From assembly GCA_020061125.1 (NCBI GenBank), contig JAGUYV010000359.1, positions 1 to 11,973 of the forward strand: DNA of 11,973 nt, written 5' to 3'. A program made the translations under genes and the position numbers. Below the pieces are notes generated by a model. The model ran no database searches and had not been told where the DNA came from. It saw only the letters and a program-made list of their open reading frames with translations. The DNA is from a bacterium. Lineage in GTDB: Bacteria > UBP15 > UBA6099 > DSWB01. Shown here one piece after another: positions 2,729-6,185 of the stretch; positions within the stretch are counted from its first letter, which is position 1, and every line of letters begins with the position of its first letter.

Positions 2729-2765
2729 AAAAAATAAACCCCCGGCAGGGGTTGCCTGCCGGGGG
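2729..2765 (-). terminator. Intrinsic terminator of the flagellin gene
   Basis: A perfect 11-bp stem, CCCCCGGCAGG (2739-2749) paired with CCTGCCGGGGG (2755-2765), encloses a 5-nt loop. Read on the minus strand it is followed immediately by TTTATTTTTT (2738-2729), a classic U-tract. It is about 107 nt past the flagellin stop. The plus side has no T-run, so it acts for the minus strand. An adjacent perfect palindrome TTTGCGCC-A-GGCGCAAA lies at 2715-2731. Confidence 0.88.
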
Positions 2766-2872: not shown

Positions 2873-4492
2873 TCACACCAGCAGTGCGTTGTCCTGTCCC
2901 ACACCCTGTTCGGAAATGAGGTTCAGGACCGCGCTGGGGGTGGCGTTGGCGTGCAATCCTGCGGCCACTGCCGTGTTTAAGATGATCTGCTGTTTGGTCA
3001 TGCCAGTCGCGGTTTCCGCGATGTCCGTATCCGCAATTTTCGACTTGGCGGCCGTGGTGTTGATGCGCTCGGCCGTGAGATCGTTGATGACGGCTTCGAT
3101 ACGGTGCATGTACGCGCCGGTTGTGGCGCGCTCCTGCGCGATGTACTCGATGCCCGCATCCACTGTGCTGATGGCGTTCTGCGCGGCGCTGACCGAGGTC
3201 AGGCTCACGCCCGAGAGCTTGGTGGTGCGCGCCGTGATGGTGCGGAACTCGAATGCGGCCCGGTCCTCGGACAGGTTGTCCGGCCCGACCTGGAAACTCC
3301 ATTCGTAGTCGCCGCCATAGGCGCTAAGCGCAGATGTCACCTGGTTGACCCATGTTGTTGCGGGAACAACGAGGTCAAACGGCGCCGGTGTGGGATTGTA
3401 ATACGGATCCAAATCAAAGGACCCGCCGTTGGCAATCGCCTCATAGTCACTGTCTCTCAAATAAAAGGGATTGCCCAGGTTTTCATCCACATTCCCGGCA
3501 TACATGCATGTAATGCCGCTGGCGTTCAAGGCAGATAGAACCTGATTCTCAAGCGAAGCGTCCACATCCACAGGATTTCCGCTGCCTGTGGAACCCTGAT
3601 CATCGCTGTCAGCGTCAGTAATCAGAATTATGACCTTCTGGGCGTCGGTGCGGAATGTGAATGCATCACCTGGCGTTCCGGCAGTATATCTTTCTGTAGC
3701 TTCAACAACTGCGTCCATGCCGCGCTCCGTGCCTCCTGCAGTCGTAAGTGCGTCTACGCCCTGTCCGCCGGACGTGAACGACACCGCATCACTGTAGAAT
3801 GTGAAGTCCCCTTGCGTTATGGCTCGGTCCGCTGCGTTGCCATAGTTGCCCAGAGTGACTGAACCAGCAGCAACAGGAGGCGCGCCAAGACTTGTGCCAT
3901 TGAAACCCACTGCGGACATGCGAAGATCAAATCCCTTGGCCTTAAATTGTGTGAACATGGTGTTCGCGGCATTGGATATGGCTGTAATATATGACCCCAT
4001 ACTCCCGGTCCTGTCAAACACCCATACCACATCCAACTCTCCTGGACCGAACAGGTATTGCGTTCCGCCTGTGCCGCCTGAATCCACGGAACCGTTCATG
4101 GACGAGTATTTGCCGACTTTGTCTATCTCGGCAATAAGCGCTTGCGCTTCGTCGTTCATCTTCTGACGGTCCGAGTCTGTAAGCGTGGCTTCGTTGGCTG
4201 CCCTGACGGAGAGTTCCTTGAGGCGCATGGCCATCTTGAGCTGTTCTTCCATGAGCCGGTCGCGGCCTTCCATCCAGATGAGCGCTTCCTGCGCGTTTTC
4301 GATGGCGACATCTATCCCGCGGTAGTGGGCGCGCATGCTTTCGGAGATGGCCAGGCCCGCGGGGTCGTCGGCGCCGCGGTTGATGCGCATGCCCGAGCTT
4401 AACCGCTCCATGGTTGTTTTCAGGTCGCGGTTAACCCAGAACTGGTTGGCCAGGTTCTTCATTGCGTCTACATTTGTCTGTACGCTAAACAA
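2873..4492 (-). CDS. Flagellin with an inserted von Willebrand factor A domain
   Basis: A 539-residue filament protein. Residues 1-135 are a clear flagellin N-terminal D0/D1 region (ERLSSGMRINRGADDPAGLA, then ESMRAHYRGI, LKELSVRAAN). Residues 396-525 are the C-terminal region (FQVGPDN, IAQERATTGAYMHRIEAVIN, MTKQQIILNTAVAAGLHANA), plus a 14-residue extra tail. In place of the usual hypervariable domain, residues about 152-385 form a vWA domain: a hydrophobic strand into the MIDAS motif DRTGS (Asp160, Thr162, Ser164), GGTERGMDAV (Thr255) and VIILITDAD (Asp293). All metal-site positions are present. The start is TTG at 4492: AAGGGGGTGAT precedes it and flagellin homology begins there. Hand-counted GC in three 60-nt vWA blocks is about 49%, against 62% in two flagellin-arm blocks, suggesting separate origin of the insert. 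No other flagellar gene is nearby. The flagellin call is firm; ligand binding by the vWA part is inferred. Confidence 0.93.
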   Translation of the reverse strand: MFSVQTNVDAMKNLANQFWVNRDLKTTMERLSSGMRINRGADDPAGLAISESMRAHYRGIDVAIENAQEALIWMEGRDRLMEEQLKMAMRLKELSVRAANEATLTDSDRQKMNDEAQALIAEIDKVGKYSSMNGSVDSGGTGGTQYLFGPGELDVVWVFDRTGSMGSYITAISNAANTMFTQFKAKGFDLRMSAVGFNGTSLGAPPVAAGSVTLGNYGNAADRAITQGDFTFYSDAVSFTSGGQGVDALTTAGGTERGMDAVVEATERYTAGTPGDAFTFRTDAQKVIILITDADSDDQGSTGSGNPVDVDASLENQVLSALNASGITCMYAGNVDENLGNPFYLRDSDYEAIANGGSFDLDPYYNPTPAPFDLVVPATTWVNQVTSALSAYGGDYEWSFQVGPDNLSEDRAAFEFRTITARTTKLSGVSLTSVSAAQNAISTVDAGIEYIAQERATTGAYMHRIEAVINDLTAERINTTAAKSKIADTDIAETATGMTKQQIILNTAVAAGLHANATPSAVLNLISEQGVGQDNALLV

Positions 4493-4536
4493 CAGTCATC
4501 ACCCCCTTTCTTTAGCAGAGTCATTGACATGGTCCT

Positions 4537-4795: not shown

Positions 4796-5090
4796 GGGGA
4801 TTCAAATCCCATGCGCAAAACCCGTGCGCGGAACCTCGAAAATGGTTTTCATGCGCGGCGCATAGCCGCGCGCTCTGTGTTCCTTTATGGCCTCCGTGGC
4901 AATCCTTGCATTTATGTTGTTCTTGCACACCGTTCAACGGTGCGCCATGCGGCGGCGGCATTCGGCGATGCCGCCCTACATTCTTCAAAGTTCATAGAAA
5001 CAAAAGCGGTTTCCCCGCTGTGTTCTCTGTGCGCGTCCGTGCCCTCCGTGGCAATCCTTGTCTCTGTTATTTTGCTTTCCCTTCGCGTCC
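4796..5090 (+). repeat. Composite dispersed repeat, copy B (longest, internally duplicated)
   Basis: Modules in order: GGGGATTCAAA (4796-4806); GGTTTTCATGCGCGGCGCAT with the palindrome GCGCGGC-gcata-GCCGCGC (4853-4871), shared with copy C; a first CCGTGGCAATCCTTG unit ending near 4910; the 31-bp hairpin block at 4951-4981, identical to A and C; TCATAGAAACAAAAGCGGTT; degenerate TCCGTG repeats; a second CCGTGGCAATCCTTG unit near 5046-5060; and a T/C-rich tail. The CCGTGG unit therefore occurs twice. Confidence 0.82.
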
Positions 5091-5944: not shown

Positions 5945-6185
5945 AAAACAAGGGCAAAGGTGAAAAAATTTAAGGCAAAGGCAAAGACAATGATTACCAC
6001 GGAGGGCACGGAGATGCACGGAGGACACGGAGAAAACCGCTTTTGTTTCTATGATATTTTCAATTATGTAGGGCGGCATCGCCGAATGCCGCCGCCGCAA
6101 GGCGCATGGAGTGCGCGGCCATGCGCCGCGCCTGAAAACAATTTCGTATTCCCCACATGCTTTAAGGTTTTGGTTTTGAACCCCC
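5945..6185 (-). repeat. Composite dispersed repeat, copy C (inverted orientation)
   Basis: Read on the minus strand, modules appear in the same order as copy B: GGGGGTTCAAA (6185-6175); GTTTTCAGGCGCGGCGCATG with palindrome GCGCGGC-n5-GCCGCGC (6131-6113); the 31-bp hairpin block at 6096-6066, identical to A and B; TCATAGAAACAAAAGCGGTT; degenerate TCCGTG repeats; CCGTGGTAATCATTG; and a tail of CTTTGCC units ending near 5945. It begins 12 nt past the hydrolase stop codon. Confidence 0.85.

Follow-up and report, generated by a model that had tools for sequence, protein, structure and literature searches.

A flagellin carrying a vWA domain at its variable-region site, and its relatives in an order of uncultured bacteria

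Flagellins whose variable region holds a recognizable domain have been catalogued on a large scale. Among 26,587 flagellins surveyed, vWFA is listed as the eighth commonest variable-region domain, with 21 cases (Table 1 in Eckhard et al., 2017, PMC5595980), and therefore the architecture described here is not new. The same source showed that filaments incorporate flagellinolysin, which ranks second in abundance among their flagellins and whose domain lies exposed on them and is active (PMC5595980). A literature search for a studied vWA-flagellin led only to the 2017 table. The initial annotation of this locus, which named no characterized flagellin-vWA fusion, was thus right in that no characterized case was found in the literature, but the architecture itself had been catalogued in 2017 (PMC5595980, 21 cases): it is an architecture already known and, in the literature searched, uncharacterized.

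The vWA-flagellin reported here is encoded in a stretch of 11,973 nucleotides, called the window hereafter. The features of the gene and its product are:

2873..4492, minus strand: vWA-flagellin gene, 539 aa, TTG start, TGA stop
4499..4509, minus strand: ribosome-binding site AAAGGGGGTGA, with the TTG start 6 bases further on (from the sequence)
4088..4483, minus strand: flagellin N-terminal helical region (D0/D1), residues 4-135 (Pfam PF00669, 6.6e-25; AF2 helices)
3305..4039, minus strand: vWA domain replacing the variable region, residues 152-396 (Pfam VWA, PDB profile, homologues)
4001..4015, minus strand: MIDAS motif 1, DRTGS, residues 160-164 (D160, S/T162 and S164 in 11/11 proteins)
3725..3736, minus strand: MIDAS motif 2, GGTE, residues 253-256 (Glu256 invariant, Thr255 not)
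3599..3619, minus strand: MIDAS motif 3, TDADSDD, residues 292-298 (D293 and D298 in 11/11, D297 in 10/11)
3242..3310, minus strand: flagellin D1 beta hairpin (FQVG...), residues 395-417 (AF2 strands 395-401 and 411-417)
2915..3169, minus strand: flagellin C-terminal helical region, residues 442-526 (Pfam PF00700, 3.8e-14)
2739..2765, minus strand: intrinsic-terminator-like hairpin of 11 pairs followed by TTTATTTTTT, 3' of the gene (consensus match only)

Both ends of the protein are those of a FliC-family flagellin, with Flagellin_N and Flagellin_C in register, and the arms match solved flagellin structures by sequence with a best value of 9.5e-33. The flagellin termini had been described as intact, and the E-values of the two Pfam matches (6.6e-25 over residues 4-135 and 3.8e-14 over residues 442-526) agree with this. 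A full-length AF2 model was built from an alignment of 28 flagellins, without aligned sequences for the insert. In this model the arms have a pLDDT of mostly 70-96, the expected helices (6-33, 44-100, and 106-129 in the N arm) and the D1 hairpin are formed, and the core resembles flagellar filament structures, with a TMt of 0.73-0.77 for the best matches. Pfam and AF2 also place the insert where it had been assigned, at the flagellin variable region between the Flagellin_N helices and the FQVG hairpin.

The middle region is vWA-like, as proposed, by domain search, by profile matches to the PDB and by its homologues. On the whole protein the Pfam VWA match (residues 154-306, E 4e-4, 21.1 bits) falls slightly below the curated cut-off of 23.8 bits, while the insert scanned alone passes it (9.4e-6, 26.4 bits); moreover, eight of the nine inserts of the family match Pfam VWA, with a best value of 2e-12. 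An insert profile compared with the PDB matches collagen VI (1.8e-12), PTMP1 (5e-8), integrin alpha-1 and beta-6 (both about 5e-4) and also Mfa5. The domain had furthermore been called complete. The Pfam match covers positions 1-119 of the 174 positions of the profile; the C-terminal third of the domain, there to judge from length and alignment, has diverged too far to be matched. AF2 gives a mean pLDDT of 36 for the insert alone, modelled from one sequence, and a pLDDT below 50 over most of its length in the full model, where the insert lacks alignment depth; at these values the predicted strands and helices alternate as those of a Rossmann-like alpha/beta fold would. With the pLDDT this low, the fold of the insert is argued from the sequence profiles; the homologues and several separate sequence tests support a vWA domain at the variable-region site of an intact flagellin.

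Eleven proteins were aligned over the metal site. Eight residues are invariant in all 11 (D154, D160, S164, M165, D189, E256, D293, and D298), and position 162 varies only between Ser and Thr, so that DRTGS and the third-motif Asp, both pointed out in the initial annotation, hold across the family (D160, S/T162, S164, and D293 kept in 11/11). The MIDAS threonine read in GGTERGMDAV (T255) is probably a wrong assignment: the position is occupied by T, L, D, V, N or I, with Thr in 3/11, and Thr255 was dropped in favor of Glu256, which is conserved in 11/11. When the insert profile is compared with the PDB, Glu256 aligns with the conserved second-motif Glu of the integrin beta-6 I domain. Because this residue is both invariant and so aligned, a MIDAS of the Glu type (D160, T162, S164, E256, D293) is likely, and metal binding is predicted; the three elements sought in a MIDAS (DxSxS, Thr/Glu in motif 2, Asp in motif 3) are found at D160, S/T162, S164, E256, and D293. 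In integrin beta-3, Glu220 bridges the MIDAS and the adjoining SyMBS ion (PMC3792891). Among nine compared members, 10 residues in 245 are invariant in the vWA part and 5 in 278 in the arms; on this comparison, a vWA conserved above the arms is the reverse of what would be expected of an unconstrained variable region. Two vWA-flagellins (L061:1417-2919 and L170:623-2125) have strongly diverged N arms without the usual LSSGxRIN motif and a shortened C arm, and in both the first MIDAS motif reads DRSGSMSDD, similar to the DxSxSMxDD pattern (MIDAS and ADMIDAS) of integrin beta.

The genome to which the window belongs (G000) measures 4.1 Mb and is 79% complete. Three more full-length vWA-flagellins are encoded on other contigs of it: C433 (42% identity), C287 (37%), and C69 (35%). 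In the same order, full-length homologues occur in G001 (two), G002, and G006 (two), and one in G005 is broken off by the assembly; a much more distant full-length protein, matching VWA at 6.7e-12 (46.4 bits), lies on a 124-kb contig of G035, from another lineage. Homologues of the same architecture had been called for, and they were found as three paralogues, in four more genomes of the order and in one unrelated genome. Exact sequence matches identify G004 as the MAG 'bacterium UBP15_UBA6099', which the window's order of uncultured bacteria therefore includes, G002 as USMO_maxbin.112 and G006 as USCA_metabat.19_sub. In G317, a second genus of the G035 family, a flagellin (L222:4548-6068) bears a degenerate vWA-like insert in which DTGSA replaces DxSxS; with its MIDAS motif gone, the metal site is dispensable in some cases. 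In total, matches spanning the insert occur in at least seven of 386 genomes (G000, G001, G002, G005, G006, G035, and G317), a lower bound since the best four candidates per genome were scored. A single-protein scan of database contigs found nothing, an alignment-based contig scan gave 80 flagellin loci, 0 of them with a vWA insert by the insert profile, and the viral contigs searched held no relative of the vWA-flagellin.

In a tree of the flagellin arms, the window protein pairs with one of the two G001 proteins (G001b, support 100/100), its orthologue from another family of the same order, and C287 groups with G001a and G006a (99/97). C69 and the G035 protein are placed elsewhere, the arms of the latter with those of other lineages (Domibacillus, Treponema, and a Lachnospiraceae MAG; 96/92). 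Well supported branches force at least two state changes and three are needed in total, although the tree has long branches, C433 foremost, and its details are unsure. As reconstructed from the arms, the vWA has been acquired by flagellins independently more than once. Furthermore, the window vWA is nearest to that of C433, with 52% identity, while the arms of the two proteins are only 27-32% alike; this disparity suggests that the vWA domain has been exchanged between paralogues.

From these data we favor, with modest confidence, the reading that the protein is an accessory flagellin showing metal-dependent binding sites on the filament. Its D0/D1 arms would polymerize alongside the genome's short canonical flagellins, and the vWA, with its intact Glu-type MIDAS, would replace the variable region and face outward, where a divalent metal would link it to an acidic group on a ligand. 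The number of such sites on the filament, available to a surface, polymer or other cell, would then scale with the amount of vWA-flagellin incorporated and, with a vWA in the outward-facing part of each such subunit, the flagellum may be a long array of binding sites. Expression, assembly, metal binding, and ligand binding are steps that we infer. Weighing against this reading, the gene is solitary and lies outside any flagellar operon, its neighbors being unrelated genes (an NAD-dependent epimerase, a MerR regulator, a metallo-beta-lactamase-fold protein, a carboxylesterase, and an ECF-type sigma factor); no promoter was recognized upstream, FlhA is missing from the genome, the insert is modelled at low pLDDT, and G317 has a vWA without the motif. 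vWA domains also serve as structural or enzyme-partner modules. More generally, the conserved metal site makes a putative role in adhesion or bundling plausible.

Bundling would involve no outside ligand: the vWA domains would contact each other or neighboring flagellins laterally, stiffening or bundling the filament. Other flagellins are known whose outer-domain contacts shape the filament. The four different vWA-flagellins of the genome could pair with one another, and the closeness of the window vWA to that of C433, despite their dissimilar arms, is consistent with such pairing. However, it is at the metal-site motifs that the conserved residues are concentrated, a pattern that ligand binding explains at least equally well, and we regard lateral contact as a less likely but serious explanation.

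Rather improbable, in our judgment, is a paralogue that is silent or seldom used, or one whose product lies outside the main filament, leaving the vWA without a present flagellar role. Upstream of the gene, no promoter of the sigma-28 or sigma-70 type was recognized, the best sigma-28 match there being no better than in shuffled sequence, and the one genome has about 20 flagellin genes; the C-terminus of the protein has, in addition, diverged from that of the short flagellins of the same genome. Against this, the reading frame is open, with 539 aa plus a stop on the minus strand from 4492 to 2873 confirmed by translation, AAAGGGGGTGA ahead of it is a strong ribosome site, and a GC-rich terminator-like hairpin with a T run follows at 2765-2739. 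Moreover, an orthologue is retained across families and the MIDAS residues are invariant.

The intergenic parts of the window hold, in three copies (2588-2710, 4873-5060, and 5972-6106, one inverted relative to the others), a repeat element of two modules, GGCGGCGGCATTCGGCGATGCCGCC... and CTCTGTG...CTCCGTGGCAATCCTTG. Elsewhere, the related pair of contigs L095 and L181 have 140 bases in common at 95%, outside the genes compared.

That an assembler joined flagellin arms to a vWA, as a single metagenome-type contig and a third-position G+C of 0.55 in the insert against 0.76 and 0.81 in the arms might suggest, is refuted, because the same architecture recurs at full length on three other contigs of the genome and in G001, G002, G006 and, on a 124-kb contig, G035, so that the joint is no assembly artefact, a point on which the first interpretation of the locus had been left to depend.

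The accessory-flagellin reading gains a wider setting from the remaining flagellins of the genome. A profile search gave 21 Flagellin_N matches, one of them FlgL-like, and of the approximately 20 flagellin genes about 10 are plain, canonical flagellins in tandem among them, and eleven have large inserts: four vWA domains, one HExxH peptidase (C328), propellers, DxDGDG-type repeats and two without a Pfam match (C299 and C180). FliG was found in this 79%-complete genome and FlhA was not; five out of the six relatives in the order have FlhA, and the simplest reading of its lack is the incomplete assembly. An organism without flagella, raised by the missing FlhA, is out given the FliG gene and these relatives.

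Orthologues of several insert-bearing flagellins, the HExxH protein and its motif among them, occur in further genomes of the order. The HExxH flagellin (HEMTHA...WGQEM; L041:152-1810, which is C328, L178:1254-2939, and L133:3968-5653) is kept across the genomes of the order; C328 scores 81 bits against the flagellinolysin model NF033876, well under the cut-off of 205, and its presumed third ligand, a Glu, lies about 20 residues past the first His, vs. 29. Propeller-like (TolB/PD40) inserts occur in C422, C487, C423, and C52 (L043:2138-3841, L044:4775-6526, L048:2823-5849, and L055:2-2026): by PD40/DPPIV_N the first three are of propeller type and C52, a partial gene, only weakly so, C487 matches TolB at 302 bits, and C423 carries, in addition, an extended series of DxDGDG repeats of the calcium type (TSP3-like). 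Very large inserts, in proteins of more than 900 aa, are those of C299 (L046) and its relatives L177 and L180, and the insert of C180 (L050) and its relatives L183 and L184 is without a Pfam match; both have orthologues across the order.

It is possible, and we advance it tentatively, that this order builds its filament from a vertically kept kit of domain-bearing flagellins (adhesin-like vWA, HExxH peptidase, beta-propellers, and calcium-type repeats), the filament being a multi-function surface organelle for which swimming would be one job among several; the vWA, with its Glu-type MIDAS, would have been recruited several times independently. What is new here is a vWA-flagellin family in several genomes, with orthologues across families and four paralogues in one genome, its Glu-type metal site, the vWA having been acquired repeatedly, and the other domain-bearing flagellins that accompany it. 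An architecture that was formerly one line in a survey table now has a multi-genome family, and its conserved metal-site residues open a direct test, namely whether the filament binds a ligand through the MIDAS metal. How far a flagellum can become a display surface would be seen from the other domain-bearing flagellins of these genomes.

Compared with known systems, the window protein shares with the vWFA flagellins of Table 1 (PMC5595980) the position of the vWA inside the hypervariable region; those stand in the table as a row without a study, whereas the window lineage offers four paralogues in one genome. Like flagellinolysin, it is for the rest an ordinary flagellin with a functional domain in the variable region, but the insert is there a metallopeptidase and here a vWA: no HExxH occurs in the whole 539-residue sequence, and the match to NF033876 is weak (25.4 bits, cut-off 205) and lies in the hairpin and C-arm part common to flagellins, so that neither the gluzincin site nor the score of a flagellinolysin is found. 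Finally, the likeness to integrin beta I domains extends to DxSxS, the second-motif Glu and the third-motif (T/S)D, with integrin beta-6 aligned residue by residue (E 5e-4), although the homology to the window vWA is remote and the rest of the integrin is missing from the protein.
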